From Phycicoccus sp. CSK15P-2 (GTDB lineage: Bacteria > Actinomycetota > Actinomycetes > Actinomycetales > Dermatophilaceae), in assembly GCF_016888005.1 (NCBI RefSeq), contig NZ_JAFDVE010000019.1, positions 62,001 to 126,000 on the forward strand: a DNA stretch of 64,000 nucleotides, written 5' to 3'. Below are positions 6,347-43,955 of the stretch, piece by piece (position 1 is the stretch's first letter; each line of letters starts with the position of its first letter). The notes under the pieces were generated by a model. It did no database searches, was not told the origin of the DNA, and worked only from the letters and a program-made list of their open reading frames with translations. The translations under genes and the position numbers were made by a program.

Positions 6347-6371
6347 GCGCCCGAGCCTGCCACCGATCTCC

Positions 6372-6389
6372 CGTGACGCGCGAGTAACG
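6372..6389. promoter_or_regulatory. Imperfect 18-bp palindrome upstream of the carboxylase gene, possible operator
   Basis: On the minus strand CGTTACTCGCGCGTCACG reads as CGTnACnCGCGnGTnACG, symmetric at 14 of 18 positions and 25 bases upstream of the carboxylase start codon. Size and symmetry fit a TetR-type operator, a class that often controls acyl-CoA genes in actinobacteria. That assignment is inference only. Its presence suggests the carboxylase has its own control and is not simply the tail of the upstream operon. Confidence 0.35.
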
Positions 6390-6419
6390 GTCGCGCCCCG
6401 TGGTGTCGCCCCGACGCGG

Positions 6420-7148
6420 TCAGATCGCGAGGAGTCCCTTGACGACGGTCGAGAGCGCACCGAGCACCGCGAGCGCGAGTACGGCCCGCCCCGCGCGCTC
6501 GGCGCTGACCCGCCGCGAGAGGAGGTCGCCCGCGAGCAGCCCGACGGCGAGCGCGGCGAGGGCGACGAGGACGACCCGCGCGTCGAGCCCGCCGATCCCA
6601 CCCTTGGCGGTGAGCGAGGCACCGTTGACGAGAACCGAGTACAGCTGGAAGGTCGCGACGAACCGCCGGTGGTCCCAGCGCGTGCTCGTCGCGTACAGGA
6701 CCATCGCCGGGCCGCCGACCCCCGCCGTGACGTTCATGAAGCCGCTCGTCGCGCCGGCCGCCACGGCACCGGCAGGCCCGTGGCCGACCTCGACCCGGCG
6801 GGTGAGGTGGACGATCGCGAGCGCCACGAGGACGAGGCTGCCGACGAGGACGAGGAGCGGCGGTCCCGGCACGTTCCGGGCCACCCAGGCCCCGGCCGGG
6901 ATGACGACGAGGGCCGGGACGGCGAGCAGCAGGCCGCGCCGCCACTCGACCTCCCGCCAGGTCCGGGCGAGGACGACGACGCAGACGACCATCCCGAGGA
7001 GGTTGGCGAGGAGCACTCCCTCGAACGGGCCTGCCACGAGGACGAGGATCGGCGCGCTGACGAGGGCGAAGCCGACGCCCGTGACCCGCTGGGTCAGGGC
7101 GCCGGCGAGGACGCCGACCGGGAGCCAGACGAGGTGGTCGACGCCCAC
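6420..7148 (-). CDS. TauE/SafE-family membrane exporter, probable sulfolactate exporter
   Basis: This is a 242-residue integral membrane protein with about eight hydrophobic segments arranged as two similar halves. The first half carries LTQRVTGVGFALVSAPILV and the second SGFMNVTAGVGGPAMVLYA, the paired glycine-rich motifs of the TauE/SafE family. Members move sulfite, sulfoacetate or other C2-C3 sulfonates out of cells. It is the last gene of the ten-gene operon, 3 bp after the aldehyde dehydrogenase. TauE-like exporters are a recurring partner of sulfoquinovose genes in bacteria that excrete sulfolactate, so I infer that role here. The family is broad, and the substrate comes from context only. 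Confidence 0.8.
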   Translation of the reverse strand: MGVDHLVWLPVGVLAGALTQRVTGVGFALVSAPILVLVAGPFEGVLLANLLGMVVCVVVLARTWREVEWRRGLLLAVPALVVIPAGAWVARNVPGPPLLVLVGSLVLVALAIVHLTRRVEVGHGPAGAVAAGATSGFMNVTAGVGGPAMVLYATSTRWDHRRFVATFQLYSVLVNGASLTAKGGIGGLDARVVLVALAALAVGLLAGDLLSRRVSAERAGRAVLALAVLGALSTVVKGLLAI

Positions 7149-7151
7149 GGG

Positions 7152-8591
7152 TCAGAGGCCCAGCGCGACGTACCGGGTGTCCTGAAACTCCTCGAGCCCG
7201 GCGGCGGCCCCCTCGCGGCCGAGGCCGGACTGCTTGACGCCGCCCATTGGCGCGAAGACGACGGTGGGCAGCGCGTTGTTGGCACCGACGACCCCGACCT
7301 CGAGCCGTTCCGCCATCCGCCAGATCCGGGAAGAGTCGCGCGACCAGAAGTAGCCGGCCAGCCCCATCTCCGTCGCGTTGGCCCGCGCGAGGGCCTCGTC
7401 CTCGTCGCGGAATCGGAAGACGGCCGCGGCCGGGCCGAAGACCTCCTCGGTGCCGATCCGCGCCTCGTCGGGCACGTCGGCGAGCAGGGTCGGCGCGAGA
7501 TACGTGCCGGCGCCGGGCAGCTCCGCCTCGCGGGTGAGCCGGGTCGCCCCCGCCGCCAGGGCCTCGTCGACGAGGGCGGTGACGGCCTCGACCCGGCTGC
7601 CGTCGATGACCGGCCCGAGGTCGGGCAGCGGGTCGGCCAGGCCGTCCCCGACGGTCATCGCGTCGACGGCCTCGACCAGCCGGCCCGTGAACTCCTCGTA
7701 GACGCGCTCGTGGACGACAAAGCGGTTGGCGGCGATGCACGACTGACCGGTGTTGCGGAACTTCGCGAGGAGCGCCCCCTCGACGGCGGCGTCGAGGTCG
7801 GCGTCCTCGAAGACGACGAACGCCGCGTCCCCACCGAGCTCGAGGAGCGGGCGGACGACGCGACGAGCGGCGGTCGTCATGACCTCGCGCCCCACGCCGG
7901 TCGACCCGGTGAAGCTCACCGCGCGGACGGCCCGGTGCTCGAGCAGGGCGGTCGTCAGCTCGCGGGGCGGGCCGTGGACGAGGTTGACGACGCCGTCGGG
8001 GACGCCGGCGTCGACGAGGCACCGGACCAGCTCGGTGACGGCCAGGGGCGCCTTCTCGGACACGCGGGCGACGACGGTGCACCCGGCGGCCAGCGCGGGC
8101 GCGAGCTTGCGGGCCTGGATCGAGCACGGGAAGTTCCACGGCGTGAGCGAGGCGACCACGCCGACGGGACGTCGCACGGTGAGGTGGCGCCTGTCGGCGG
8201 CCTCGTGCGGCACGACGACGCCTTCGGGGCGGCGGGCCTCCTCGGCGAACCACCGGAGGTACTCGGCGGACGCAGTGACCTCGCCGACCGCCTCGGGCAG
8301 CCGCTTGCCGGCCTCGAGCGCGAGCAGCCGGCCGATGCTGTCGCGGCGCTCGAGCAGCAGGTCCGCCGCGTCGCGCAGGACGTCGGCCCGGGCCCGAGCG
8401 GTGCGCTCGCTCCACGCAGGCAGGGCGGCGGCGGCCGCGTCGGCGGCGCGGACCGCGTCGTCCGGCCCACCCCAGGCGACGTGTCCGGCGACCGAGCCGT
8501 CGGCGGGCGCCAGCACGTCGACGACGTCGTCGGACGGCTCCCACCGGCCGTCGACGAGGTGGTGGGCGGTGGGCAGGTCGGGTGCGGTCAT
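7152..8591 (-). CDS. Aldehyde dehydrogenase, probable sulfolactaldehyde dehydrogenase (GabD-like)
   Basis: This is a 479-residue NAD(P)-dependent aldehyde dehydrogenase of normal family length. Seen directly are the substrate-entry motif TPWNFPCS, the general base Glu251 in LELGGDAAF, the nucleophile Cys285 in NTGQSCIAANRF, and the C-terminal EVFGPAAAVFRF. It is closest in style to succinate-semialdehyde dehydrogenases (GabD). Sulfolactaldehyde dehydrogenases of sulfoquinovose pathways belong to this same group and oxidise 3-sulfolactaldehyde to sulfolactate. A sulfofructose-phosphate aldolase in the same operon would produce exactly that aldehyde, so this is the likely role. The start chosen matches family N-termini; the reading frame stays open further upstream. 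Semialdehyde oxidation of another sugar acid remains possible. Confidence 0.85.
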   Translation of the reverse strand: MTAPDLPTAHHLVDGRWEPSDDVVDVLAPADGSVAGHVAWGGPDDAVRAADAAAAALPAWSERTARARADVLRDAADLLLERRDSIGRLLALEAGKRLPEAVGEVTASAEYLRWFAEEARRPEGVVVPHEAADRRHLTVRRPVGVVASLTPWNFPCSIQARKLAPALAAGCTVVARVSEKAPLAVTELVRCLVDAGVPDGVVNLVHGPPRELTTALLEHRAVRAVSFTGSTGVGREVMTTAARRVVRPLLELGGDAAFVVFEDADLDAAVEGALLAKFRNTGQSCIAANRFVVHERVYEEFTGRLVEAVDAMTVGDGLADPLPDLGPVIDGSRVEAVTALVDEALAAGATRLTREAELPGAGTYLAPTLLADVPDEARIGTEEVFGPAAAVFRFRDEDEALARANATEMGLAGYFWSRDSSRIWRMAERLEVGVVGANNALPTVVFAPMGGVKQSGLGREGAAAGLEEFQDTRYVALGL

Positions 8592-8619
8592 CGGGTGCTC
8601 CTCGGGTCGGGGTCGGCGG

Positions 8620-9717
8620 TCAGGCCCGCACGAGGACGCCGGGGCGGGGTCGCCCGCCGACGTCGACGGTGGGCCACTCGGGGTCGTGGACGAGGAGGTC
8701 GGGGCCGTCGTCGCGGACGACGGCTGTGTCCTCGACCTTCCACCGGTCGGTGCTCGGGTTCCAGGCGAGGACCGACCCGCGGGGGACGGTCGCGTCGGAG
8801 CCCGGGTGGGCGGGGAACTCCCGCGGCTGCCAGCCGGTGAACCCGCCCTGGTGGTGGCGGTGCCACGCGTCGGGGTCGAAGCCCTCGGCGGCGTAGCCCG
8901 CGACCCCGGCGGACACCACGTCCCCGATCCGGGCGCCGGGGACGGAGGCGTCGAGGAATCGTTGCTCGACCCGCAGCAACCGGGTGTGGGCGTCCCGGTC
9001 CGCGGCGGACAACGGCGCGAACGACACCCAGCGGGTGACGCTCGCGACGAGGCCGTCCCGACGGGCGCAGCAGACGAGCATCGCCCGCGCACCCAGCGGC
9101 TCCCCCGTCGGCAGCGGGTGGCGGTGCCGGCCGCCGCGGTCGCCGCCCGCGACCATGAGCACGACCGGGTCGAGCCCGTCGGCCAGCAACGCGTCGGCGA
9201 GCCGGCCGGCGGCGCGGTACTCGGTGTCGTCGGGCGTCAGGGCGAGCGCGGCCCGGGTGGCCGCCGAGGCGGCGTCGTGGCACACCTGCGCGAGGGTGGC
9301 CTGCTGCTGGGCGTCGAGGACCCGTCGGAGGGCGGCGAGGTCGGCGGCCAGGGGGACGTCGTCCCCGCGGGGCCGGTCGGCGCCGACGTCCGGGCCGGTC
9401 GGCAGGCGCGCGTCGCGGCCCTCCCACCACGGGACGACGGCCCACTCGACGGGCAGGCCCGCCAGCTCCGTGTCGCGCAGCCTCGGCGCTTCGATGGCGT
9501 TCGTCACCACGACCGCGGTGGGTCCGGTCCCCGGGTCGCCGAGCTCCACGACGACGTCGAGGCACGCCGCGTCGAGGGTCTGGGGGACGTGGACCCGCGC
9601 CCCGAGCAGCCAGGTGAGCGCGGCCGGCTCGCGCAGCACGAGCCGACGGACGCCCGCGTGCCGGGCGAGGTCGTCGAGGGCCGCCAGCCGGCCGGCGAAG
9701 CCGGTCACATCAGCCAT
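8620..9717 (-). CDS. Creatinase/aminopeptidase P (M24-fold) homologue lacking metal ligands
   Basis: This 365-residue protein has an N-terminal creatinase-like domain and a C-terminal pita-bread fold like Xaa-Pro peptidases. The first metal-binding block (normally DxG...SDxTR) reads MLVCCARRDG...ASVTRW. Both metal aspartates are therefore replaced, by Cys216 and Ser226. The histidine block (HRHHQGGFTGW) and the late glutamate block (WKVEDTAVV) remain. Such a pattern fits a metal-independent hydrolase, as creatinase is, rather than a peptidase. It overlaps the upstream GH31 gene by 8 bp and precedes the aldehyde dehydrogenase, so it is an integral operon member. No role for such a protein in sulfoquinovose or related sugar use is known to me. 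Confidence 0.75.
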   Translation of the reverse strand: MADVTGFAGRLAALDDLARHAGVRRLVLREPAALTWLLGARVHVPQTLDAACLDVVVELGDPGTGPTAVVVTNAIEAPRLRDTELAGLPVEWAVVPWWEGRDARLPTGPDVGADRPRGDDVPLAADLAALRRVLDAQQQATLAQVCHDAASAATRAALALTPDDTEYRAAGRLADALLADGLDPVVLMVAGGDRGGRHRHPLPTGEPLGARAMLVCCARRDGLVASVTRWVSFAPLSAADRDAHTRLLRVEQRFLDASVPGARIGDVVSAGVAGYAAEGFDPDAWHRHHQGGFTGWQPREFPAHPGSDATVPRGSVLAWNPSTDRWKVEDTAVVRDDGPDLLVHDPEWPTVDVGGRPRPGVLVRA

Positions 9718-11983
9718 GCCGGACCGCGCCGTCGAGCCCGAGCTCGACCGGCGACCCGTCGAAGCCGACGAACCGACGCGGTCCCTCCGCGACGTCGCCG
9801 TAGGCGTGCAGGGTCCACGGGCGGTCGACGAGGTCGTCGGTCGAGCGGACGTCCGGGCCGACCTCGACGCGCGGCAGGACGGCACCGGCGCGCACGAGGA
9901 CGGGCATCTCGTCGAGCCGGACCTCCACCTCGTGGAAGCCGGGACCCGTGAAGGACCCTTCGCCGTCGAGCTCGCGCCACGTCCCGGCGGGGACGTAGAA
10001 CCGGCGCCGCACCGGGGCGGTCCCGTCGTCGAAGACGGGGACGACGAGGAGGTCGGAGCCGACCATGAAGACATCGTCGACCGACTGGGCCACGGGGTCG
10101 TCGGGGAACTCCAGCCCGAGCGGACGCAGGACCGGCCAGCCGTGGGCCAGGGACTCGTGGGCCACCTGCCACAGCGTCGGGAGCATCGCGTAGCGGAGCC
10201 GGACCCAGTGGCGCGCGGCGTCGAGCGCCTCGTCGCCGAACGCCCACGGCTCGCGCGGTCGGAGCCCGTGCGCCCGCATGAGCGGCGAGAACGCGCCGAG
10301 CTGGGTCCAGCGGACGTACAGGCCCGGGGTGAGCTCGGGGCCGAAGAAACCGCCGATGTCGTGGCTCCACAGGCCCGGGGCGCTCACGGCGTAGGACAGC
10401 CCACCGCGGACCGTCGCCTGCATCCCGGCGACCGTCGACTCCGCGTCGCCGCCCCACTGGCCGGGGTACCGGTGCGAGCCGGCCCAGCCGCTGCGGCCCC
10501 ACACGAGCGGAGCCCGGCCGGTCGCCCGGCCGATGACGTCGCTGACCGTGCGGTTGTAGACCAGCGGGTAGAGGTTGTGGGCGTACTGCGGCGGCGTGCC
10601 GTCGAAGAGCGCGACGTCGTCGGGCAGGGCCTCCCCGAAGTCGGTCTTGAAGACGGCGACCCCGTCGGCCAGGAACGGCTCGTGCATCTCCTGCCACCAG
10701 GCGCGGGCCTCGGGGTTCGTGAAGTCGACGAGAGCACGCATCCGGCCGTCCGGCGTCGGCGTCTTGCGGATGCCCGCGAGAGTGCCGTCGGTGTGCCGGA
10801 CGAGGTAGCCCTTCTCCTCGGCCTCGGCGAACCGCGGGCTCACCGGGTCGAGGTAGGGCAGCTCCCAGACCGACAGCCGCACACCGCGCTCGGCGAGCGC
10901 CTCGACGAACGCCCGCCGGTCGCCGAAGCGGGTCTCGTTCCAGATGAAGTCGCAGTTGAGCCGGTCGACCACGAGCCAGTCCGGGTCGAGGTGGAGCACG
11001 TCGAGCGGCACCTCGTGCCGGCGCATGGTGTCGGCGACCTCGAGCATCTCCGGCCGGTCGTGGTAGCGGCAGCGACCCATCCAGTAGCCGAAGGCCCAGA
11101 GCGGCGGCACCTCGCCCCGACCCGTGAGCGCGGTGTACTCGGTGAGACGCTCCTTCGGGGTCCCACCGACGACGAGGTAGAGGTCGAGGACCTCGTCGGC
11201 GACGGTGAGCCCGAGCACCGACGGGCGCTCGTGCCCGACGTCGGCGGTCAGGACGGCGCCGGTGTTGACGAAGGCGCTGTACCCGACGCTGGAGTGCCAC
11301 ACCGGGACGGGCTTGTAGGCGAGTCCCGTGCCAGTGCCGCACGCGTCCTCGCTGCGCAGCACGAGGCGCTGGCCCTGCTTGGCCAGCCGGCCGAACTGCT
11401 CGCCGAAGCCGAGGACGTCCTCGCCCGGTGCGATCTCGAGGTTGAGAGTGAGCCCGGCGTCGTCGGCGACGACCGTGGGTGCCGTCATGAGCCCGGCCAC
11501 CTGCCGCAGCCGGTGCGCCGAGCGCAGCACCGGCCGTCCGGTCGCGTCCTCGACGGCCAGCGAGAACGGCGCACGCCCCACCCGCAGCCGCGCCTCCCCC
11601 GTCGACACGACGACCTCGCCCTCGACCTCCTCGACGGCGAGGGCCGTGGCGTCGGGAGCGGGGTCGACGACGATCCCCATCCCGGTGCCGTCGTCCTCGA
11701 GCACGGGATGGCCTGCCGGTGCGACGGTGAGGCGCAGCACCGACGGCGTCGGGGCGCTCACCCGCAGCGTGTACGGCGTGACGTCGGCGTCGGGCAGCTC
11801 GAGGGTCGGCAGGTTCGGCATCTGCGTCTCGATGCCCTGCTCGAGGGGCGGCTCGCCGGTGAGCCAGCCGGGCATGATGCCCAGCTGGACGCCGCGCAGG
11901 GCGTCGACCTCGAGCGAGACCTCGGTCGCGTCGGGGGTGGCGTGCACCGCACGGAGCCGGCGTAGGAGGAGCGGGTGGGGCAC
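9710..11983 (-). CDS. GH31 family alpha-glycosidase (alpha-xylosidase-like; candidate sulfoquinovosidase)
   Basis: This 757-residue glycoside hydrolase has the GH31 layout: N-terminal beta-sandwich, (beta/alpha)8 barrel and C-terminal beta domains. The nucleophile is Asp448 in FKTDFGEALP and the acid/base is Asp513 in QWGGDAEST; LWSHDIGGFF is also conserved. There is no signal peptide, so it acts inside the cell on imported glycosides. In this operon it should release the sugar that the isomerase then handles, by context sulfoquinovose from sulfoquinovosyl glycerol. However, the sequence looks more like alpha-xylosidase YicI (KTDFGE) than YihQ (ADFGEYLP), and the Gln/Arg/Trp residues that grip the sulfonate in YihQ are not evident at VLHLDPDWL and CDFIWNETRF. 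GTG start. Confidence 0.88.
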   Translation of the reverse strand: MPHPLLLRRLRAVHATPDATEVSLEVDALRGVQLGIMPGWLTGEPPLEQGIETQMPNLPTLELPDADVTPYTLRVSAPTPSVLRLTVAPAGHPVLEDDGTGMGIVVDPAPDATALAVEEVEGEVVVSTGEARLRVGRAPFSLAVEDATGRPVLRSAHRLRQVAGLMTAPTVVADDAGLTLNLEIAPGEDVLGFGEQFGRLAKQGQRLVLRSEDACGTGTGLAYKPVPVWHSSVGYSAFVNTGAVLTADVGHERPSVLGLTVADEVLDLYLVVGGTPKERLTEYTALTGRGEVPPLWAFGYWMGRCRYHDRPEMLEVADTMRRHEVPLDVLHLDPDWLVVDRLNCDFIWNETRFGDRRAFVEALAERGVRLSVWELPYLDPVSPRFAEAEEKGYLVRHTDGTLAGIRKTPTPDGRMRALVDFTNPEARAWWQEMHEPFLADGVAVFKTDFGEALPDDVALFDGTPPQYAHNLYPLVYNRTVSDVIGRATGRAPLVWGRSGWAGSHRYPGQWGGDAESTVAGMQATVRGGLSYAVSAPGLWSHDIGGFFGPELTPGLYVRWTQLGAFSPLMRAHGLRPREPWAFGDEALDAARHWVRLRYAMLPTLWQVAHESLAHGWPVLRPLGLEFPDDPVAQSVDDVFMVGSDLLVVPVFDDGTAPVRRRFYVPAGTWRELDGEGSFTGPGFHEVEVRLDEMPVLVRAGAVLPRVEVGPDVRSTDDLVDRPWTLHAYGDVAEGPRRFVGFDGSPVELGLDGAVRHG

Positions 11984-11989
11984 GGAAAA

Positions 11990-12805
11990 CTATCCCTTCA
12001 CGGAGCCGGCGGTGAGGCCGGCGACGAAGTAGCGCTGGAGGAAGACGTACGCGACGACGAGCGGCGCCGACGCGACGATGACCCCGGTGAACAGGAGGGG
12101 GTAGTTCGTGAGGAACTCGCCCTGGAAGTTGAGCAGCGCGAGCGGCAGCGTGACCTTCGCCGGGTCGTGGATGAACAGCAGGGGGTACAGCAGGTCGTTC
12201 CACTGGATGACGAAGAGGAAGATCGCCGTCGCGGCGAGCGAGGGCAGCGACACCGGCAGCGCGATGGAGCGGTAGGTCCGCCACGGCCCCGCGCCGTCGA
12301 TCGAGCCGGCCTCGAACAGCTCGCGCGGCAGGGTCCGCATGAAGCCGGTGAGGATGAACACGGCGACGGGCAGCGTCGCGACGATCTCGACGAGGACCAG
12401 ACCGAGGCGGCTGTCGAGCAGACCGAGCCGCTGCCACAGGACGTACTGGGGGATCATGTTCGACTGTGCGGGGACCGCCATACCGAGGACGAGGAAGCCG
12501 TACAGCGCGAAGCCCTTCCACCCCGGGATCCGGGACAGGCCGTACGCGGCGAGGCTGCCGATGACGAGGGTGAGCGCGACCGCGGTCACCGTGACGACGG
12601 TGCTGTTGACGAAGGCCGTCCCCATGCTCGCGTCGGTGAGCACCGAGCCGTAGTTCGTCGGCGCCAGCGTGGACGGCGGCCCGAACGGGGCGTCGAACAG
12701 CTGCTCGGTCGTCTTGAACGAGCCGGTGAGCACGACGAGCAGGGGGATGATGATGAGGAGGGCGTAGACGCCGAGGACGACCCGGCGGCCGAGGGACCCG
12801 ACCAT
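11990..12805 (-). CDS. Carbohydrate ABC transporter permease (MalG type)
   Basis: This 271-residue inner-membrane permease has six predicted membrane helices. The ATPase-contact EAA loop reads EAGSIDGAGPWRTYRSIALP, the form typical of the MalG/CUT1 group. It ends AGLTAGSVKG, a common CUT1 permease tail. It pairs with the MalF-type permease 13 bp upstream and the lipoprotein binding protein before that. A ribosome site (AAAGGAG) precedes the ATG. No ATP-binding subunit lies in the operon, so a shared MsiK/MsmX-type ATPase encoded elsewhere is expected. Confidence 0.92.
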   Translation of the reverse strand: MVGSLGRRVVLGVYALLIIIPLLVVLTGSFKTTEQLFDAPFGPPSTLAPTNYGSVLTDASMGTAFVNSTVVTVTAVALTLVIGSLAAYGLSRIPGWKGFALYGFLVLGMAVPAQSNMIPQYVLWQRLGLLDSRLGLVLVEIVATLPVAVFILTGFMRTLPRELFEAGSIDGAGPWRTYRSIALPVSLPSLAATAIFLFVIQWNDLLYPLLFIHDPAKVTLPLALLNFQGEFLTNYPLLFTGVIVASAPLVVAYVFLQRYFVAGLTAGSVKG

Positions 12806-12818
12806 GGTGCTGCTCCTT

Positions 12819-13772
12819 TCAGGCGCCGTGCTGGGTGAGGCGCACGGCCCGCCGCTGGAGCAGGCTCACGACGGCGATGATGAGCATGAAGACGATCGAC
12901 TCCGCTGCGGCGTATCCGAACTTGGAGTTCGTGAACGTCGTGTAGATGCGGGTCGAGAGGATGTCGAGAGAGCCCTTCGGCGGGTTGCCGCCGAGGCCGA
13001 GGATGAGGTCGAACGCCTTGAACGACTGGATCGTCGTGTAGGCGACGACGATGGCCGTCGCCGGCGCGATGAGCGGCCAGGTGACGAAACGGAACCGCTG
13101 CCACTGACTCGCGCCGTCGAGCGAGGCCGACTCGTACAGCTCGGCCGGGATCTGCTGCAGCCCGGCGATGAAGATGACCATGAGCTGACCGGCGTGCGCC
13201 CACACCTGGGCCAGGGCGACCCAGAAGATGGCCTGGTCGGCGTTCCCGAGGAACGCGCTGCGCAGACCGTCCAGGCCGATGCCGCCCAGGACCTGGTTGA
13301 TGAGGCCGAAGTTCGGGTCGTACATGAACTTCCACACGAAGGCCACGGACACCGACGACAGGATCGCCGGCAGGAAGAACAGGGCCCGCAACGCCGTGGA
13401 GGACCGCGAGTTGCGCTGGAGGAGCACCGCGAGGAGCAGCGACAGCGCCGTCTGGGCGATGACGACGACGAAAAGGAACTTGAGGTTGTTGGTCAGCGCC
13501 CCGCGGAAGAGGTCGTCGTTGGAGACGATCGACCCGAAGTTCGAGGTGCCGACGTTCGCGAAGTCGGCGCTGAACCCGTCCCAGTCCGTCACGGAGTACT
13601 GGAAGGCCTGGAGGGTCGGTCCGGCGAAGAACACGAGATAGAGGAGGAGCGCCGGGACGGGGAAGAACCAGAGCCCCGGGTGCACCCGCCCGTGGGCGCC
13701 TCGGCGGCGCCCACGGCGGGGACGGTCGGCGGCCGGGGTGACCCCGGCACGGGTCTCGGTCGTGGCGGTCAT
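12819..13772 (-). CDS. Carbohydrate ABC transporter permease (MalF type)
   Basis: This 317-residue permease has a basic, cytoplasmic N-terminus (RRGRRRGAHGRVH), six or more membrane helices and an EAA loop reading ESASLDGASQWQRFRFVTWP, as in MalF/UgpA proteins of the CUT1 class. It forms the membrane channel with the adjacent MalG-type subunit. It lies 10 bp after the binding-protein gene and is co-transcribed with the isomerase, aldolase and kinase. By context the cargo is sulfoquinovose or its glyceryl glycoside; the sequence alone does not reveal it. Confidence 0.92.
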   Translation of the reverse strand: MTATTETRAGVTPAADRPRRGRRRGAHGRVHPGLWFFPVPALLLYLVFFAGPTLQAFQYSVTDWDGFSADFANVGTSNFGSIVSNDDLFRGALTNNLKFLFVVVIAQTALSLLLAVLLQRNSRSSTALRALFFLPAILSSVSVAFVWKFMYDPNFGLINQVLGGIGLDGLRSAFLGNADQAIFWVALAQVWAHAGQLMVIFIAGLQQIPAELYESASLDGASQWQRFRFVTWPLIAPATAIVVAYTTIQSFKAFDLILGLGGNPPKGSLDILSTRIYTTFTNSKFGYAAAESIVFMLIIAVVSLLQRRAVRLTQHGA

Positions 13773-13782
13773 CGTGGGCTGC

Positions 13783-15084
13783 TCACTGACCGCGCTGCTG
13801 GTCGACGACCCGCTGGGCCTCGGCGGCGGCGGCGTCCGGCGACTTCCCGCCGACGACGGCGATGCAGGCTCCCTCGACGGCCGTGCGGATGTCGAGGTTG
13901 TTGAACTGGAACCGCGGCGCGAGGAGCGTCTTGCGGGTCAGCCAGGGCGCGATCGCCTTGAGGTCGGGGTTGGTGTACTCCACGTCCTTGACGGTGACGT
14001 TCTGGCTCGTTCCGTTCGCGTACACCCCGGCGACCTCGGGCGTCGAGAGGTACTCGAGCCACGCCAGGGCGGCGGCCTGGTTCTTCGAGGCGGAGTTGAC
14101 GCCGAGGACGAACGTCGCGTTGTAGATGCCCTCGTACTTCGCCTCGTCCGCCGACACCGTGATCGGGGCGATGAGGTCCATGTCGAACTCCGCGCCGAGG
14201 GCCCGGACGGCCGCGATGTGGTAGCTGCCCGTGGCGAGCATCGCGGCCTTCTTCGTCGCGAAGATCTGCTGGCAGGGCTCCACCGCGGTGCCGGTGGCGT
14301 TGTCCTGGAAGTAGGGCTTGAGCTGGACGTACTGCTGGAGCGTCGTGAGGAACCAGTCGTCGGTGCACTTGTACTCGCCCGACTCGATCTTCGTACACAT
14401 GTCGTCGCTGGGGGCGTTGTTCATCACCATGGCGTTGAACAGCTGGCCGGCGTTGCCGGGGTCCCCGCCGGGCCAGGCGATCGGCACGACGCCCTGGGAC
14501 TTGAGGTCGTCGCACAACCCGAGGAAGCCGTCCCAGTCCTTGGGCGCCGAGCCGCCGCCGGCCTTGGACACGAGGTCGGCGTTCGTGACGGGCATGTTGA
14601 AGACGACCTGGTACGGGTAGCCGAACTGGGTGTCGTCCTGTTTCCCGGCCTCGATGAGCGCCGGGTCGAAGTTCTGGACGAAGTCCTGGTTCGAGACGTC
14701 GGTGTACAGCCCGGCCTCGACCATGTCGACGAACTGCGCGCCGCGGAAGGCGACGAACACGTCGCCGACCGAGCCGCCGCGGATCCGCTGGAGCGCGGAC
14801 GACTGGTAGTCGTTCGAGGGCGAGATGTCCTGGCGTACGGACACGTCGGGCGTCGTCGCGGCGAACTTCTTGATGAGGTCGTCGAAGACCTGCTTGTCCT
14901 CCGCCCGCCAGTGGGCGAACGAGATGTCTCCGGAGGCCTCGCCGCTGATCGACGCGGCGCCGGTGCTCGTGGAGCCACCGGTGCTGCCCGGGCCGGCGCA
15001 TCCGGCGAGGACGGCGCCGACGCCTCCGGCGCCGACGAGCTGGAGGGCGGCGCGGCGGCTGAAGCCTTGCTGACGCGTGTTCAT
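13783..15084 (-). CDS. ABC transporter sugar-binding lipoprotein
   Basis: This is a 433-residue extracellular solute-binding protein of family 1. The N-terminus combines a twin-arginine-like stretch (GFSRRAALQL) with a lipobox, AVLAGC, followed by a Gly/Ser/Thr-rich linker, so the mature protein should be lipid-anchored outside the cell. Periplasmic-binding-protein blocks are present (ISFAHWRAEDKQVFDDLIKK and VRQDISPSNDYQSSAL). It supplies substrate to the two permeases directly downstream and has a strong ribosome site (AAAGGAG). Context points to sulfoquinovose or sulfoquinovosyl glycerol, as with the Agrobacterium SmoF system, but sulfonate-binding residues cannot be read off by eye. Confidence 0.9.
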   Translation of the reverse strand: MNTRQQGFSRRAALQLVGAGGVGAVLAGCAGPGSTGGSTSTGAASISGEASGDISFAHWRAEDKQVFDDLIKKFAATTPDVSVRQDISPSNDYQSSALQRIRGGSVGDVFVAFRGAQFVDMVEAGLYTDVSNQDFVQNFDPALIEAGKQDDTQFGYPYQVVFNMPVTNADLVSKAGGGSAPKDWDGFLGLCDDLKSQGVVPIAWPGGDPGNAGQLFNAMVMNNAPSDDMCTKIESGEYKCTDDWFLTTLQQYVQLKPYFQDNATGTAVEPCQQIFATKKAAMLATGSYHIAAVRALGAEFDMDLIAPITVSADEAKYEGIYNATFVLGVNSASKNQAAALAWLEYLSTPEVAGVYANGTSQNVTVKDVEYTNPDLKAIAPWLTRKTLLAPRFQFNNLDIRTAVEGACIAVVGGKSPDAAAAEAQRVVDQQRGQ

Positions 15085-15087
15085 GGA

Positions 15088-16536
15088 CTACTCCTTTGGA
15101 TCCACGGGGGCGAACTCGATGACGGGGATGCCGAGCTGGTCGGCGGCGGTGCGGAGCGCGGGACGGACGTCGGTCCACGCGAGCACCGTGTGGTGCGGGA
15201 AGCCGTGGGTGACGAGGCTCTGGACGACCTCGGCCGCGGAGGCGTCGAGGCGGACGGCGGCGGTGTTGCCCTGGAACCGGTTCGGCTCCGGGAGGGACTC
15301 GCCGGAGGCGATGAGCAGACGCAGGCCGCCGCGCTCGGGGTCCTCGGTGAGCCGGGCCATGACGACCGGCCCCGTCCGCAGGGGGAAGTCGCCGGCGACG
15401 CCGATCTTGCGGTTGCAATGGATGCTCTGGGTCGCGTCGGCCGGGTCGGCCGCGAGCGAGGTCGCCGCGGCCCCGCAATGCCACAGCCGGACCAGGTTGG
15501 CCTCGGCGTCGAGGTCGACGGTGTCGACGAGGTACGTCGTCCCGGAGCCGAGCGCCTCGAGGAGGAGCATCGTCACCGCGCCGTAGACGTCGCGCTCGCA
15601 CGCGGTCGGCGTGCCCTCGTCCGCGAGCCGCGAGAGCGAGGAGCACGGACATACGCCGAGCGAGCCGGGGAACTCCGGCCAGCAGCGGATGGCCATCCCG
15701 GACAGCTCGCCGTCGTCGCGCCACGAGCGCATGGCCGTCGTCACCCCCGCCGAACGCGACACCTGGTCGGCGTCGACGGCGGCGAGCGAGGGCTGGGCGG
15801 CCGTCGCGGCGGCCCGCTCGGTCTCGCGCCGCTGCTCGTCGACGGCGCCCACCCGGCCGAACATGTCCTCGACGGAGATCTGCTGGACCTCGATGCCGAG
15901 GAGCGAGGAGAGGAGGTCGGCGTCGTACCGGCTGGGGGTGAACCCGGTCGGGGCGTCCCCGACGAGCCCGAGGGTGCGCCCGCGCAGCGTCCCCAGGGCG
16001 GAGGCGACCGCGTCGGGGTCCTCGGCCCGCGGGCCCGTCGTGGTGGGCAGGTCGGGGACGGCGGGCAACCGCCCAGCCAGCGCCTCCCTGATCACGTCGC
16101 GGACCCCGGGCTCGCCCGGGTCGCCGTACACGAGGCGCGGGGTGCGGCCCGCGTGGACGACGAGCGCGTGCCCGAAGAGGTTGGCGCCGCACAGGCTGTT
16201 GAGCCACAGCCGGTCGCCGACCGGGCCCGGCTCACGGAAGGACCACAGGAGGACGGGCGCCTCCAGGTCCGAGTACAGGCGCAGCGCCGGCGAGGCGTCC
16301 GAGAACGACGCGCACACGTTGACGACGAGGTCCGCGCCCTCGAGCGGCACCTCGGCGGCCGCGTCGAGGTCCTCGGGGGTCATGACGAGGTTCGTCGGGC
16401 CGACGACCTCGGCCCCGAGCTCCTCGAGCAGGGCCCGGGCCTGGGCGGCCCGTTCGGCGGCCACGTCGACCGCGAAGGTCGGCCGGGCCGTCGGGATGAC
16501 GACGACGCGAGGACGGCCGGTGGTCGCGGCGGTCAC
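15088..16536 (-). CDS. L-fucose/arabinose-isomerase-family sugar isomerase, candidate sulfoquinovose isomerase
   Basis: This 482-residue protein has the fold signature of L-fucose isomerase relatives. An N-terminal half carries the conserved VVNVCASFSD region. The C-terminal catalytic block has ACERDVYGAVTMLLLEA and LVDTVDLDAEANLVRLWHCG, which supply the metal-binding Glu, Asp and His. These enzymes interconvert aldoses and ketoses. The downstream partners act on sulfofructose, so the inferred reaction is sulfoquinovose to sulfofructose, replacing the unrelated E. coli YihS (acylglucosamine epimerase fold). An isomerase unlike YihS is reported for the sulfo-transaldolase route of Bacillus. 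The GTG start overlaps the aldolase stop as GTGA; an upstream in-frame extension would overlap the aldolase extensively and is rejected. Confidence 0.82.
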   Translation of the reverse strand: MTAATTGRPRVVVIPTARPTFAVDVAAERAAQARALLEELGAEVVGPTNLVMTPEDLDAAAEVPLEGADLVVNVCASFSDASPALRLYSDLEAPVLLWSFREPGPVGDRLWLNSLCGANLFGHALVVHAGRTPRLVYGDPGEPGVRDVIREALAGRLPAVPDLPTTTGPRAEDPDAVASALGTLRGRTLGLVGDAPTGFTPSRYDADLLSSLLGIEVQQISVEDMFGRVGAVDEQRRETERAAATAAQPSLAAVDADQVSRSAGVTTAMRSWRDDGELSGMAIRCWPEFPGSLGVCPCSSLSRLADEGTPTACERDVYGAVTMLLLEALGSGTTYLVDTVDLDAEANLVRLWHCGAAATSLAADPADATQSIHCNRKIGVAGDFPLRTGPVVMARLTEDPERGGLRLLIASGESLPEPNRFQGNTAAVRLDASAAEVVQSLVTHGFPHHTVLAWTDVRPALRTAADQLGIPVIEFAPVDPKE

Positions 16537-17423
16537 CGGGCCACCCCGGCGTCGACGATCTCGCCGAGCCGCTGCAGCCGCGGTACGGAGACCTCGCGCA
16601 GGTCGCGGGCGACGTCGTCGCTGCCGACGACCGAGGCCCAGACGGCGCGGCCGGCGAGGAAGCCGGAGGCACCCTCGGCGCAGGCGAGCTCGACGGCGCG
16701 GGGGAAGAGGTCGGCGGGGACGCCCGAGGACAGGACGACCCACGGGGACTCGACGGCGGCGGTGATGGCCGCGCAGCCTCGTCGGATCGCGGCCTCGTCA
16801 CCCTGGCCCTTCGACGGCACCTCGGCCTTGTAGAGGTCGGCCCCGAGGCCGCCGAGCTCCTGGGCGGCCTCGACGACGCAGGCGTCCCAGTCCCAGGCGC
16901 GGCCGTCCCGCGGCGCCTTGGCCACCGGCTCGATGATGCTGACGAGCCCGGCCGAACGGCAGCGCTCGACGAACCGACGGACCATCCCGACGCGCAGAGC
17001 GCCGTCCTGGTCGGGGCGGTGGATGACGAGGAGCTTCATCGCGACGGCACCCTGGTCGCGGACGGCTGCGGGGTCGACCGCCTCGTCGATCTCGACGTCG
17101 GTGACGTGCTCGCCGTTGCCGGCGACGAAGTGGTCGGCGGCGGCGATGAGGCCGCAGGAGGGGTCGACCGCCCCCTCCTCGACGACGGCGTCGAAGGCGA
17201 ACTGCTTGTCGACGAGGACGGCACTGGCGTACGGGGTGAGGACGCGGGCGGCCTCGACCTTGAACCGACGCAGCTGCTCGTCCGTGACGGGCTCGCTCTG
17301 GTGCTCGGCGAACATCGAACGCATCGCCTCGCGCTGGTCGACGGCGAGCATCGCGAAGCCGCCGCTCGGACGGGCGAGCCGGTCCAGGCCGATGGCGTTC
17401 GGGGTGGGGATCCTGCTGGTCAC
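16533..17423 (-). CDS. yihT: 6-deoxy-6-sulfofructose-1-phosphate aldolase (YihT-like, class I)
   Basis: This 296-residue protein matches E. coli YihT (292 residues) block by block from memory: SGGFAMLAVDQREAMR near the N-terminus, GLVSIIEPVAKAPR, GADLYKAEVP with the Schiff-base lysine at 199, and GASGFLAGRAVWASVVG with Arg259 in the sulfonate/phosphate-binding segment. YihT splits sulfofructose-1-phosphate into dihydroxyacetone phosphate and 3-sulfolactaldehyde. The related tagatose-bisphosphate aldolases (LacD) are longer and differ in these blocks. The GTG start has a good AGGAG site 7 bases upstream. It lies 27 bp after the kinase and overlaps the isomerase by 4 bp. This is the strongest single argument for sulfoquinovose as the operon's substrate. 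Confidence 0.88.
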   Translation of the reverse strand: MTSRIPTPNAIGLDRLARPSGGFAMLAVDQREAMRSMFAEHQSEPVTDEQLRRFKVEAARVLTPYASAVLVDKQFAFDAVVEEGAVDPSCGLIAAADHFVAGNGEHVTDVEIDEAVDPAAVRDQGAVAMKLLVIHRPDQDGALRVGMVRRFVERCRSAGLVSIIEPVAKAPRDGRAWDWDACVVEAAQELGGLGADLYKAEVPSKGQGDEAAIRRGCAAITAAVESPWVVLSSGVPADLFPRAVELACAEGASGFLAGRAVWASVVGSDDVARDLREVSVPRLQRLGEIVDAGVAR

Positions 17424-17450
17424 TGAAGGTCTCCTGGGGACGAAGGGGGG

Positions 17451-18380
17451 TCAGGCGTGGGCGGGGTCGTGATCGGGCAGGAGGGCGAGGACCCTCTCGT
17501 GGTCCGGGACCGCGGAACGCCCGTCCAGCCCCGTGCAGGCGAGCGCAGCGACGACGTTGGCGTAGGCGAGCGCGGCCGGGAGGTCGTCGGACCGCACGTG
17601 CGCCGCGAGCAGGGCGCCGTGGAAGACGTCACCGGCGCCGAGGGTGCTCAGGACGTCGACCGCGACGCCCGGTGCGTGGTGGGTCGGGCGCGAGGGGTCA
17701 GCGCCGTAGGAACCGCGCCCGCCGTCGGTGGCGACGACCCGGCGGGCCCCGTCGGCGTGGGCCGCCCGGAGGAGGTCCTCGACGGCGCGCTCGCCGTGGA
17801 CCCGGCGCAGGGCCACGACGGTCGGGACGAACAGGTCGACGCCGTCGGGGGCGAAGCCGGGGATCGGGTTCCCGGCGTCGACGGAGAGGCGCGGCCGGGT
17901 CGCGAGCGCGGGGTCGACGAGGGCGCGGACGGCCGGCCAGCCCAGGTGGTCGGCGTGGACCCATTCCGCGCCGCGGACGAGGTCGACCCCCCGCGTCGTG
18001 TCGACCGGCGGACCGGGGCGGGCGCTGATGGCGCGGGTGCCCCGCGAGCGGTCGACGACGATGACACTGGCCGCCGAGCGTCGTCCCGTGGCCACGGTGA
18101 CCCCGGAGACGTCGACGCCCTCGTCCCGCAGGTCGGCCAGGATGCGCTCGCCGTCGGCGTCGTCCCCCACCGTCCCGACGAACGCGGCCGGGACGCCGAG
18201 CCGGGCAGCGGTGACCGCCGCCGTCGCGGCCGGACCTCCGCCGGCGGACGTCAGCTCCTCGGCGAGGACGCGGTCGTCGGCGCCGGGGTAGCCGGGCACG
18301 AGAGCGATCGAGTCCATCGTCGCCGCACCGACGAAGACGACCGGGTGGCGTCCGGTCGGAGTGACGGCGGTGTCGCTCAT
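17451..18380 (-). CDS. yihV: PfkB-family sugar kinase, probable 6-deoxy-6-sulfofructose kinase (YihV-like)
   Basis: This 309-residue ribokinase-fold kinase is the first gene of the operon. Its N-terminal signature GGGPAATAAVTAARLG and C-terminal signature TLGAGDVFHGALLAAH (catalytic Asp in GAGD) follow YihV closely. The preceding G-A-A-T-M-D-S-I strand is typical of the group. It would phosphorylate sulfofructose at C1 with ATP, giving the substrate of the neighbouring aldolase. PfkB enzymes vary in substrate, so the call leans on the YihT-like partner as well as the motifs. The ATG has an AAGGAG site and faces the divergent DeoR gene across an operator-like sequence. Confidence 0.83.
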   Translation of the reverse strand: MSDTAVTPTGRHPVVFVGAATMDSIALVPGYPGADDRVLAEELTSAGGGPAATAAVTAARLGVPAAFVGTVGDDADGERILADLRDEGVDVSGVTVATGRRSAASVIVVDRSRGTRAISARPGPPVDTTRGVDLVRGAEWVHADHLGWPAVRALVDPALATRPRLSVDAGNPIPGFAPDGVDLFVPTVVALRRVHGERAVEDLLRAAHADGARRVVATDGGRGSYGADPSRPTHHAPGVAVDVLSTLGAGDVFHGALLAAHVRSDDLPAALAYANVVAALACTGLDGRSAVPDHERVLALLPDHDPAHA

Positions 18381-18442
18381 GGCATCTCCTTCGAGGCCCG
18401 ACGCGTCCGTGAGGACGACTGATGTAGCGACACTAACAGTGA

Positions 18443-18460
18443 ATGTTGGAAAGTCAACAT
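18443..18460. promoter_or_regulatory. Divergent promoter with inverted-repeat operator for the DeoR-family regulator
   Basis: ATGTTG-GAAAGT-CAACAT is a perfect 6-bp-arm inverted repeat in the 103-bp gap between the kinase and the regulator. This spot is unusually AT-rich for the window. On the minus strand it contains TTGACT, a good -35 box for the operon, with TAGTGT 16 bases downstream as a weak -10. On the plus strand TACTCT (18472-18477) ends six bases before the regulator ATG. A repressor bound here would block both genes. Confidence 0.6.
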
Positions 18461-18483
18461 CTTTCGTCGACTACTCTGCAGAC

Positions 18484-19320
18484 ATGGCGGATGAGGATGT
18501 GCGGTCCGACGACCCGACCGCGATGCGGTACACGAGCGCCCCGCACCGGCGGGCGTGGATCGTCGACCGGCTCCGTGAGACCGGGTTCATCTCCGTCGCC
18601 AGCCTGACGAGCGACCTCGGCGTCTCCGACATGACGGTGCGTCGCGACCTGCGGAAGCTGGAGGACCGGGGCGAGGTCCGAGTCGTCCACGGCGGGGTCA
18701 GCCTGCGGCACGGACCCTTGCACGACCCCGCGTTCGCCGGGCGCTCCGGCCTCCAGGCCGACGCCAAGGACGCCATCGCCCGCGAGGCGAGCCGGCTCGT
18801 CTCGCACACCGACATCCTCGCCGTCGACGCCGGGACGACGGCCTACGCCGTGGCCCGGGCCCTGCCGTCGGACTTCGCCGGGACGGTCGTCACCCACTCG
18901 GTGCCCGTCATCCAGCTGCTCCTGCGCCGCGACCGGGTCCGGGTCGTCGGCCTGGGGGGTGAGCTGCTCCACGAGAGCCAGGCGTTCGCCGGGCAGATGG
19001 CCGTCGACGCCATCCGCAGCCTGCGGGTCGGCACGCTCTTCCTCGGTGCGGCGGCAGTCGACGAGCGCGGGGTGTACGTCGCGACCGACAACGAGCGTCC
19101 GACGAAGCTCGCGCTCATCGACATCGCCGACCGGGTCGTGCTCCTCGCCGACCGGACGAAGTTCACCGCGGCCGCCCCGGTCCTGCTGTGCCCGTTGGAC
19201 CGGATCGACCTCCTCGTCACCGACGAGCCGCTCCCCGCGGACGCCCGCGACCCCCTCCGGGACGCGTCGATCCCCGTGCTCCACGCCCTGAGCGACACCG
19301 CGCGGACGGGTCGGGCCTGA
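18484..19320 (+). CDS. DeoR-family transcriptional regulator of the sulfoquinovose operon (CsqR/YihW-like)
   Basis: This 278-residue repressor-type protein has the DeoR layout. An N-terminal winged helix-turn-helix (RAWIVDRLRETGF...VSDMTVRRDLRKLED) is followed by a phosphosugar-sensing domain of the ribose-5-phosphate isomerase fold (AVDAGTTAYAVARALP and FLGAAAVDERGVY). DeoR proteins usually release DNA on binding a phosphorylated sugar intermediate; E. coli CsqR, which controls the yih genes, is of this family. It is divergent from the operon and separated by an inverted repeat. No ribosome site precedes the ATG, but a -10-like TACTCT ends six bases upstream, so translation may be leaderless. 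A longer in-frame start would reach into the operator and is not used. Confidence 0.85.
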   Translation: MADEDVRSDDPTAMRYTSAPHRRAWIVDRLRETGFISVASLTSDLGVSDMTVRRDLRKLEDRGEVRVVHGGVSLRHGPLHDPAFAGRSGLQADAKDAIAREASRLVSHTDILAVDAGTTAYAVARALPSDFAGTVVTHSVPVIQLLLRRDRVRVVGLGGELLHESQAFAGQMAVDAIRSLRVGTLFLGAAAVDERGVYVATDNERPTKLALIDIADRVVLLADRTKFTAAAPVLLCPLDRIDLLVTDEPLPADARDPLRDASIPVLHALSDTARTGRA

Positions 19321-19358: not shown

Positions 19359-19368
19359 AGGCACTCGG

Positions 19369-19449
19369 TGGCAGGTGAAGGATTCGAACCTTCGAAGCTT
19401 TCGCGACGGATTTACAGTCCGCTCCCATTGGCCGCTCGGGCAACCTGCC
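19369..19449 (-). tRNA. tRNA-Tyr (anticodon GUA)
   Basis: Read on the minus strand, the 81-nt gene has a 7-bp acceptor stem (GGCAGGT paired with ACCTGCC) and the D-loop region CCGAGCGGCCAATGGG. The anticodon arm is GGACTGTAAATCC with anticodon GTA, followed by a long class II variable arm and the T arm GGTTCGAATCC. The discriminator is A. CCA is not encoded (CCG follows). A long variable arm with GUA anticodon identifies bacterial tyrosine tRNA. Confidence 0.95.
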
Positions 19450-43641: not shown

Positions 43642-43955
43642 CGGCCCGCGTCCCCGGCGGCGCCCGGGAGGTCGAGGTCGATGGACCCCCGCCGACGGAA
43701 GACGGCGAGGACGACGGCCAGCGCGACGACGACCTCGGCCGCCGCGATGGTGATGACGAAGAGCGGGAGCACGCTGCCGGCCGCCCAGCGGTCGCCGCCG
43801 GAGGCCTGCGCGGCGACGAGCAGGACGAGGCCGCCGCTCAGGACGAGCTCGACGCCCACGAGGACGAGGACGGCGTTGCGGCGCACGGCGACGCCCGCGA
43901 CGCCGGTGCCGACGAGGACGGCGGCGAGCAGGTACGGACCGGCGAGGTGGATCAC
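43638..43955 (-). CDS. nuoK: NADH-quinone oxidoreductase subunit K
   Basis: This 105-residue protein has three membrane helices and the conserved buried glutamates: one in LVLVGVELVLSGG and one in VITIAAAEVVVALAVV. These take part in proton relay at the junction of the arm. GTG start overlapping the nuoJ stop; the end overlaps the nuoL start. Confidence 0.92.
   Translation of the reverse strand: MIHLAGPYLLAAVLVGTGVAGVAVRRNAVLVLVGVELVLSGGLVLLVAAQASGGDRWAAGSVLPLFVITIAAAEVVVALAVVLAVFRRRGSIDLDLPGAAGDAGR

Follow-up and report, generated by a model that had tools for sequence, protein, structure and literature searches.

Ten genes in the window (the whole 64,000-nucleotide stretch of DNA that was analysed) very probably form an operon for the catabolism of glycosides of sulfoquinovose (SQ), a sulfosugar of plants, by a hybrid sulfo-EMP pathway with export of sulfolactate, an assignment made apart from the mutarotase proposal below. 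It is based directly on gene families, conserved gene order, two predicted folds and a conserved site, from which we infer the reactions and their regulation. Two parts of the operon are unusual: a GH31 glycosidase nearer YicI than YihQ, and an M24 'peptidase' without metal ligands, the latter gene being the most novel part.

The ten co-directional genes occupy positions 6420-18380 of the minus strand (Table 1), with gaps of at most 28 bp (27, -4, 3, 10, 13, 6, -8, 28 and 3 bp from the kinase to the TauE gene; start codons here and for the DeoR gene are our choice), and a DeoR-type gene faces them. These coordinates confirm the ten-gene leftward operon and divergent regulator described in a first-pass annotation, Pfam families bear out its gene-family names, and the EMP-type sulfoglycolysis ending in sulfolactate that it put forward appears well supported by family and context; its gene list held as to layout and lacked the M24-like gene and the family of the isomerase. 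Named genomes from other genera show the same gene order again, so it did not come about by chance.

Table 1. Features of the putative SQ operon and its upstream region
Feature	Position	Strand	Basis
TauE/SafE family transporter, proposed sulfolactate exporter	6420..7148	-	Pfam TauE
Aldehyde dehydrogenase, proposed sulfolactaldehyde dehydrogenase (SLADH)	7152..8591	-	SSADH/GabD type
M24-like protein lacking the metal ligands, putative sugar mutarotase	8620..9717	-	Pfam Peptidase_M24, 30 bits
GH31 glycosidase, YicI-like clade, candidate sulfoquinovosidase without YihQ signature	9710..11983	-	Bit scores, residues
ABC permease 2	11990..12805	-	Pfam BPD_transp_1
ABC permease 1	12819..13772	-	Pfam BPD_transp_1
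ABC solute-binding protein (SBP)	13783..15084	-	Pfam SBP_bac_1
SftI/SqvD-family isomerase (FucI/AraA fold), proposed sulfoquinovose isomerase	15088..16536	-	NF048012, Fucose_iso_C
Class I aldolase of YihT type, proposed to act on sulfofructose-1-phosphate	16533..17423	-	PDB matches; Pfam DeoC/LacD
PfkB-family kinase, proposed sulfofructose kinase (YihV-like)	17451..18380	-	Pfam PfkB; best PDB match 7ag6
Conserved 16-bp operator-like site TGTTGGAAAGTCAACA	18444..18459	.	Between DeoR and kinase genes
DeoR-family regulator, divergent	18484..19320	+	NCBIfam DeoR-type matches under their cut-offs

In the proposed route, the SBP and two permeases would import an SQ glycoside. A Pfam search found no ABC ATPase among the ten genes, so the importer's ATPase must be encoded elsewhere. 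The GH31 enzyme would free SQ from the glycoside, the isomerase would convert it to sulfofructose, the PfkB kinase would form sulfofructose-1-phosphate, and the aldolase would split this into DHAP and sulfolactaldehyde. Oxidation to sulfolactate by the aldehyde dehydrogenase and its export by TauE would complete the sequence.

The DeoR protein may control the operon at the 16-bp site. Of 12 related regions between DeoR and kinase genes, 8 have the site unchanged, a ninth has it with one change and two lack it; the twelfth (L007), where the gap is too long, was left out of the count. The operon's copy is the sole site with at most two mismatches in the 3.9 Mb genome, which rules out a wider operator regulon.

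Enzymes of the predicted pathway

By sequence the aldolase is plainly YihT-type. It matches YihT structures (7ag7, 1to3 and 7ag1) at 297-300 bits, and its K199 and R259 correspond to K193 and R253 of YihT, both kept in 25/25 aligned rows, YihT included. The grouping with tagatose enzymes that would count against this pathway was not seen (7ag7, 300 bits vs. 69 for tagatose aldolases).

The isomerase belongs to the SftI/SqvD family and is not of YihS type. Its sole NCBIfam match is the sulfoquinovose isomerase model NF048012, at 289 bits against a cut-off of 700; this model also matches (139 bits) the isomerase of a locus with a quite different gene set (L096), so the assignment holds at family level only. 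The AF2 model (pLDDT 91.8) resembles L-arabinose and L-fucose isomerases in Foldseek (query TM 0.52-0.57). The operon gene carries Fucose_iso_C, and no YihS match (E 1e-6) was found in 58 related loci.

The kinase appears weakly nearest to YihV (118 bits to the sulfofructose kinase 7ag6), slightly ahead of other sugar kinases (111 bits to the 'sugar kinase' 2rbc, 82 to ribokinase). At the aligned places of YihV K27, N109 and R138, which we take to be its sulfonate ligands, it has R, A and a gap.

The GH31 glycosidase scores 354 bits against the alpha-xylosidase YicI and at best 138 against the sulfoquinovosidase YihQ. The YihQ signature comprises Gln262, Gln288, Arg301, Trp304 and Tyr508; the operon enzyme has Y/D/R/C/F at these places, and YihQ-like genes of other loci have Q (8) or H (1) at 301 (n=9). 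These scores and the signature rule out a YihQ-type SQase. Both Asp at the places of YihQ D405 and D472, presumably the catalytic pair of retaining GH31 glycosidases, are kept.

Neither the kinase nor the GH31 enzyme is thus clearly of a characterised SQ type, and relatives of the M24-like protein are common in galactose operons. Re-use of SQ enzymes for another 6-sulfo sugar, such as sulfofucose, for which a pathway exists (PMC12421959), or for an unsulfonated hexoside is nevertheless quite improbable: the aldolase is of YihT type, the isomerase matches only the SQ isomerase model, and the sulfofucose route, in the part of that account available to us, is ED-like, its lysate having no detected isomerase activity.

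Read by eye from sequence against part of the published text, R161, R279, E251 and C285 of the dehydrogenase stand at the places of RlGabD R171, R289, E261 and C295, and the two proposed sulfonate arginines of SLADH are retained. As far as the text available goes, human succinate-semialdehyde dehydrogenase carries both as well, so they do not discriminate.

Related loci and the predicted fate of sulfolactate

Across 35 related loci, GH31 occurs in 13 and a gene termed GH188-like (by its Gfo/Idh/MocA family and a link to Jannaschia, with no characterised SqgA in the comparison) in 12, never together; TauE occurs in 11 and a SuyB-like gene in 10, again never together. Both exclusions count in favour of the SQ operon reading; they run largely along clade lines, with GH31/TauE in high-GC genomes and GH188-like/SuyB-like in small ones. 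Clear independent swaps are seen in L007 (GH188-like with TauE) and L008 (GH31 with SuyB-like). Further support comes from Jannaschia, where 11/11 loci that encode a relative of the isomerase (34-37%) carry a GH188-like gene and 10/11 a GabD-like gene, and J. faecimaris (L042) is listed as a GH188 bearer in the part of PMC10755693 available.

The small-genome relatives (1.1-2.0 Mb) are labelled Nanopelagicaceae or uncultured actinobacteria, which we take to be freshwater organisms. In nine of their loci, SuyB-like (sulfolactate-lyase-like) genes stand in place of TauE. One (L026) also has genes typed as SuyA-like, 2-hydroxyacid-dehydrogenase (SlcC-like) and Ldh_2 (ComC-like), the last at 205 bits to the L-sulfolactate dehydrogenase model (cut-off 500). 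These genes tie the pathway to sulfolactate, and suggest a complete route from SQ to sulfite in these relatives. No paper linking SQ catabolism with Nanopelagicales was recognised among the matches listed from open-licence PMC literature, which is not proof of absence.

The M24-like protein

The only Pfam match of this protein is Peptidase_M24, and its AF2 model (pLDDT 92.1) has the pita-bread fold of M24 proteins. M24 metallopeptidases bind metal through five ligands (D, D, H, E, E). In a weak alignment with PepE (E 0.061), the first Asp falls in a deletion, the second is Ser, the first Glu is Asn, the last Glu is retained and the His is ambiguous. Across the M24-like alignment the Asn is invariant (28/28 rows), and Asp stands at the second ligand place in 0/28. 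The missing ligands rule out an ordinary peptidase. Family members have so far been filed as 'M24 family metallopeptidase'.

Relatives occur in five phyla, in contexts including galT-galE-galK, xylA-xylB, arabinofuranosidase and malQ genes, and the gene is present in 25/35 related loci. The DMSP lyase DddP is also an M24 member; a similar C-S lyase role was dropped, as the M24-like gene accompanies TauE in some loci and SuyB-like genes in others, and is also found in operons for galactose and xylose.

No YihR-family match was found among the ten operon genes. In galactokinase-bearing Actinomycetota, M24-like relatives tend to occur where PF01263, the classical mutarotase family, is absent. On this pattern and on gene context, the likeliest role, proposed tentatively, is that the M24-like protein interconverts SQ anomers, standing in for YihR or SqvB. 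For Deinococcota the sole hint of a like pattern is Thermus composti, whose genome, among 14 controls, is listed with the galactokinase-signature matches (their cut-off status not given) and not with the PF01263 matches.

A metal-free sugar hydrolase, for example a lactonase on a side product or oxidative branch, is an unlikely alternative that draws on relatives adjoining DHDPS/MR_MLE/ALDH genes, Gfo/Idh and SDR genes in Thermus, or GMC oxidoreductase and SDR genes in Pantoea, and on the closeness in fold of creatinase, itself a metal-free hydrolase; yet a lactone is not expected in galT-galE-galK operons or near malQ and arabinofuranosidase genes. About equally unlikely is the view that the protein has degenerated into a bystander or binding protein with no catalytic function. 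The loss of metal ligands and the lack of a copy at E 1e-20 in nine genomes with an SQ isomerase would fit this, but eight polar residues (R79, H200, H288, Q290, R299, N320, K327 and E329) are invariant in 24 members from five phyla, so the protein is hardly a dead relic. R229 is likewise invariant in that set and present in 26/28 rows of the larger alignment, and the motifs RHP, HHQGG, WNP and K.E(D/E)T are near-invariant.

Extending the mutarotase reading, the M24-like proteins may be a new family of metal-free, pita-bread-fold aldose mutarotases, with the YicI-like GH31 a second, independently evolved GH31 sulfoquinovosidase; we hold this joint proposal at somewhat less than even confidence. 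The family would then span Actinomycetota, Deinococcota, Halobacteria, Cyanobacteriota and Pseudomonadota, and serve catabolism of sulfoquinovose, galactose, xylose, arabinose and maltodextrin/glucose. To our knowledge, mutarotase activity is not known on this fold, and no claim connecting M24 or pita-bread proteins with sugars or SQ was found among the matches listed from open-licence PMC literature, which is not proof of absence. If the family does consist of mutarotases, 'peptidase'-annotated proteins in members of five phyla would acquire a function, gene sets for galactose, xylose and arabinosides would in several cases become complete, and the activity would have arisen on a fold new to it. 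Pathway surveys rely on marker genes, and YihQ/GH188 and PF01263 markers would score this operon as lacking sulfoquinovosidase and mutarotase; SQ production is put at ~10 billion tons per year in the part of PMC12890257 available.

Comparison with known systems

GalM/YihR-type mutarotases and the M24-like protein share the proposed reaction and operon partners (galK, isomerase); the former belong to PF01263, whereas the latter matches Peptidase_M24 with a predicted pita-bread fold. Its fold is like those of the M24 peptidase PepE (4ege) and creatinase (1chm), at TM about 0.75; unlike them, it lacks the metal ligands and carries the four motifs given above.

The first-pass annotation had mentioned an actinobacterial EMP variant. 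The pathway of Arthrobacter AK01/AK04 is the nearest published one, also from Actinobacteria and with YihV/YihT-type enzymes (the YihV likeness of our kinase being weak), an SLA dehydrogenase (proposed here) and an ABC importer; TauE is shared with AK04, and sulfolactate, predicted here, is the measured product there. The two are not identical, because the Arthrobacter pathway is described as using an isomerase of YihS type and as lacking a gene for an SQase; the description also includes an IolG homologue, and its available part names no M24 gene, which our operon has (PMC8873060).

Sulfo-EMP2 of Bacillus urumqiensis, in the part of its account available, shares an SqvD-family isomerase and the same intermediates, but uses SqiK (PfkA family) and a class II SqiA in place of a PfkB kinase and a class I YihT-type aldolase (PMC9594981); by Pfam the operon lacks both, having PfkB and DeoC/LacD. 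Hybrid sulfo-EMP/EMP2 clusters, in Actinobacteria among others, are already in print and likewise mix EMP and EMP2 enzymes (PMC10599462, PMC12890257, PMC9594981), making the operon a variation on a published type; the available parts of those accounts do not contain its gene set, its YicI-like GH31 or its M24-like gene.

Operon architecture and core enzymes

Ten genes, spaced –8 to 28 bp apart, lie on the minus strand of the window, divergent from a DeoR-type regulator gene, and none of the ten encodes an ABC ATPase. The host genome comprises 3.9 Mb in 45 contigs. The operon looks accessory within the genus, since the M24-like gene, the only operon gene used in this search, was found in 3 of 12 genomes, its own included. 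The DeoR–kinase intergenic region contains TGTTGACTTTCCAACA, which among 12 related loci, all but L007 compared, is exact in eight, carries one change in a ninth (L034), and is absent from this interval in L005 and L015. Allowing two mismatches, the host genome holds a single copy. A large GH116-family glycosidase gene lies near the operon regulator in three related loci (L006, L012, and L013).

Features of the window and of two related clusters, with coordinates
Feature	Record	Position	Strand	Remark
Operon	window	6420-18380	-	From the promoter: PfkB kinase, DeoC/LacD aldolase, fucose-isomerase-like isomerase, solute-binding protein, two ABC permeases, GH31, M24-like, aldehyde dehydrogenase, TauE
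M24-like gene	window	8620-9717	-	Eighth operon gene
TGTTGACTTTCCAACA	window	18444-18459
DeoR-type regulator gene	window	starts 18484
tRNA-Tyr (gta)	window	19367-19449	-	Immediately past the DeoR gene
AT-skew maximum of the window	window	40001-44000		AT skew 0.40 at 77% GC
M24-like cluster	L096 (low-GC genome)	2279-8168
M24-like cluster	L110 (Deinococcus peraridilitoris plasmid pDEIPE01)	88886-101607

The aldolase scores 297–300 bits against solved YihT structures, versus at most 69 bits against tagatose aldolases. The positions of YihT lysine 193 and arginine 253, which we take to be functional residues, are conserved in 25 of 25 aligned rows, YihT among them. YihV is the best match of the kinase (118 bits), followed by the “sugar kinase” 2rbc (111) and ribokinase (82); given these scores and the change at the YihV sulfonate-ligand positions, the substrate cannot be deduced from the kinase by itself.

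The isomerase matches a single NCBIfam model, NF048012 for sulfoquinovose (SQ) isomerase, where it scores 289 bits (cut-off 700), and has no match among PDB sequences. The structure predicted for it by AF2 (pLDDT 91.8) resembles those of L-arabinose, D-arabinose, and L-fucose isomerases with a TM-score (query length) of 0.52–0.57, and R18, W98, G107, G117, C285, W286, C313, E314, D316, D338, W352, H353, and R395 are identical in all 60 aligned relatives. Two of these rows belong to loci whose gene content differs (L104 and L096), and NF048012 also matches the L096 isomerase at 139 bits, so the family is broader than proven SQ isomerases. The aldehyde dehydrogenase is of the SSADH/GabD type, and its R161, R279, E251, and C285 align with R171, R289, E261, and C295 of RlGabD, positions taken from PMC10599462; the arginines do not discriminate, because human SSADH has such arginines as well.

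Glycosidases and pathway ends in related loci

A scan for the isomerase in genome contigs of 84,980 species yielded 58 loci, including an actinobacterial set of 35 (L001–L034 and L058). The operon is common to high-GC genera such as Pedococcus, Nostocoides, Phycicoccus, Humibacillus, Kribbella, Pseudonocardia, and Actinomadura. Other loci come from small-genome actinobacterial MAGs (1.1–2.0 Mb), presumably freshwater organisms from their names, and contain isomerase, kinase, and permease genes, with M24-like and mostly GH188-like genes where the contig extends that far.

The window GH31 scores 354 bits with the alpha-xylosidase YicI and at most 138 bits with YihQ. At what we take to be the YihQ sulfoquinovosidase signature (Q262, Q288, R301, W304, and Y508) it carries Y, D, R, C, and F, and 13 GH31s of related loci have these residues or T replacing C; all related-loci GH31s have a DRLN stretch at the place of AFQW in YicI. 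In nine YihQ-like genes next to distant relatives of the isomerase, both Gln residues and the Trp are retained, position 508 is Y or F wherever it could be aligned, and position 301 is never Arg (Q in eight, H in one), so this signature is not universal even among YihQ-like genes.

Of the 35 actinobacterial loci, 13 contain GH31, 12 a GH188-like gene, none both, and ten neither, the last being mostly incomplete stretches except for L018 (21 kb). GH188 is described in PMC10755693 as an NAD-dependent sulfoquinovosidase family; our label for these Gfo/Idh/MocA genes derives from the homolog in the J. faecimaris locus named there, not from direct comparison with characterized SqgA. The mutual exclusion, which tracks clades with the exception of L007, fits a sulfoquinovosidase role for the window GH31.

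TauE is present in 11 and SuyB-like genes in ten of the 35 loci, and in none do they occur together. SuyB-like genes are found in nine small-genome MAG loci. L026 combines SuyB-like and SuyA-like genes with a 2-hydroxyacid-dehydrogenase (SlcC-like), Ldh_2, and PF03601 genes; its Ldh_2 scores 205 bits against the L-sulfolactate dehydrogenase model (cut-off 500), and parts of this set, SuyB-like aside, recur in other loci. No YihT-type aldolase was found nearby in six loci (L022–L024, L026, L027, and L058), leaving a gap in the route there. In L016, L019, and L022–L028, the SQ isomerase accompanies SuyB-like and, in part, GH188-like, SuyA-like, SlcC-like, ComC-like, and PF03601 genes; these clusters, several lacking a nearby YihT-type aldolase, are candidates for an SQ-to-sulfite route.

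The M24-like family as a candidate sugar mutarotase

The M24-like protein scores 30 bits with Pfam Peptidase_M24, and its AF2 model (pLDDT 92.1, pTM 0.90) resembles PepE, prolidases, and creatinase (TM about 0.7–0.76). Ligand positions were placed using the M24 metal-ligand pattern. Against PepE, with which the protein aligns weakly (E 0.061), the first of the ligand Asp residues falls within a deletion and the second is replaced by Ser; Asn stands in place of the first Glu, the last Glu is retained, and the His cannot be surely placed within HHQGG. The Asn is invariant across a 28-row alignment, in which no row has Asp at the second-Asp place and R229 is kept in 26. Invariant in 24 members of five phyla are W36, R79, W97, R194, H200, G222, R229, H288, Q290, G291, G292, G295, R299, A318, N320, P321, K327, E329, and T331.

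The gene is present in 25 of the 35 actinobacterial loci; in the L022 genome it sits on a different contig, and no copy was found at E 1e-20 in nine isomerase-bearing genomes, two Jannaschia genomes, and one spirochaete. Eleven actinobacterial SQ copies cluster in the tree (96/94), which has several long branches, and the Deinococcus copy is separate.

In a phylum-wide sample of 296 genomes, each scored for six first-look candidates, at least 31 had a match at E 1e-10, 23 above 150 bits and the other eight below 65. Among 20 larger stretches around relatives, 11 contain a galK-cluster gene and ten a galT-cluster gene; one (L094) has the Pfam-typed order permeases, GH43, galT, galE, galK, M24-like. 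In one class of 39 genomes, 16 have the gene, which lies within 3.1 kb of a galactokinase signature in 13; the signature is absent from the remaining three. Elsewhere it adjoins DHDPS-family, MR_MLE, and ALDH genes (L080 and L083), and five loci (L082, L084, L086, L097, and L099) offer no nameable context. In L096 it accompanies an SftI-family isomerase, a class II aldolase, two UroD-family genes, and a DeoR-like gene, which may form a sugar pathway of unfamiliar kind.

Plasmid contexts were taken from 11 places picked by organism among 31 and 37 matching records. Three Thermus plasmids have xylA-xylB-M24. L110 combines solute-binding protein, permease, SftI-family isomerase (139 bits), PfkB kinase, DeoC/LacD aldolase, YicI-like GH31, GabD-like, M24-like, and AEC transporter genes, possibly a cluster for SQ or another sulfosugar in a phylum other than Actinomycetota. 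Arabinofuranosidase genes lie near the M24-like gene in four haloarchaea (GH2 confirmed by Pfam in one), malQ overlaps it in Nostoc, GMC oxidoreductase and SDR genes accompany it in Pantoea, and a glucoamylase gene three genes off is its sole sugar-related neighbor in Gloeothece.

PMC5902678 and PMC9594981 report that YihQ-type glycosidases release alpha-SQ, that spontaneous SQ mutarotation is slow, that SQ mutarotase accelerates anomer exchange of SQ, galactose, and glucose, and that yeast galactokinase uses alpha-galactose. Judged by these neighborhoods, all the sugar contexts that could be named would be compatible with a mutarotase family for SQ, galactose, xylose, arabinosides, and maltodextrins; a lactonase or peptidase role would not suit them all. 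Putative catalysis would involve an invariant His and Glu within a metal-free pocket.

The classical mutarotase family PF01263 is present in 5 of 23 M24-like-bearing genomes (three SQ-type, two of DHDPS context) and was not found in the other 18, some of them incomplete. When the 296 genomes are restricted to galactokinase bearers, it occurs in 2/15 with the M24-like gene versus 75/114 without, three SQ-type genomes excluded (Fisher p = 1.3e-4), or 5/18 versus 75/114 with these included (p = 0.0035); in the single class the counts are 1/13 versus 6/8 (p = 0.003), and the difference is weaker across all 39 genomes regardless of galactokinase (1/16 versus 8/23, p = 0.056), all four tests taking no account of relatedness. 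Since both genes are missing from 39 of the galactokinase bearers in the 296-genome sample, lack of PF01263 need not be compensated. SQ genomes contain PF01263 in 22 of 27 cases, including 14 of 14 high-GC ones; among the 13 with small genomes, the family is missing from five, matched at only 26–45 bits in seven, and strongly matched in one (L028). In the host genome, which has two PF01263 genes, a classical mutarotase could thus also serve.

For a specialist, the M24-like family is above all the unexpected part, ahead of the GH31 clade, itself unexpected. The pathway represents a variation on known sulfo-EMP types, hybrid sulfo-EMP in Actinobacteria being already described in PMC10599462, PMC12890257, and PMC9594981.
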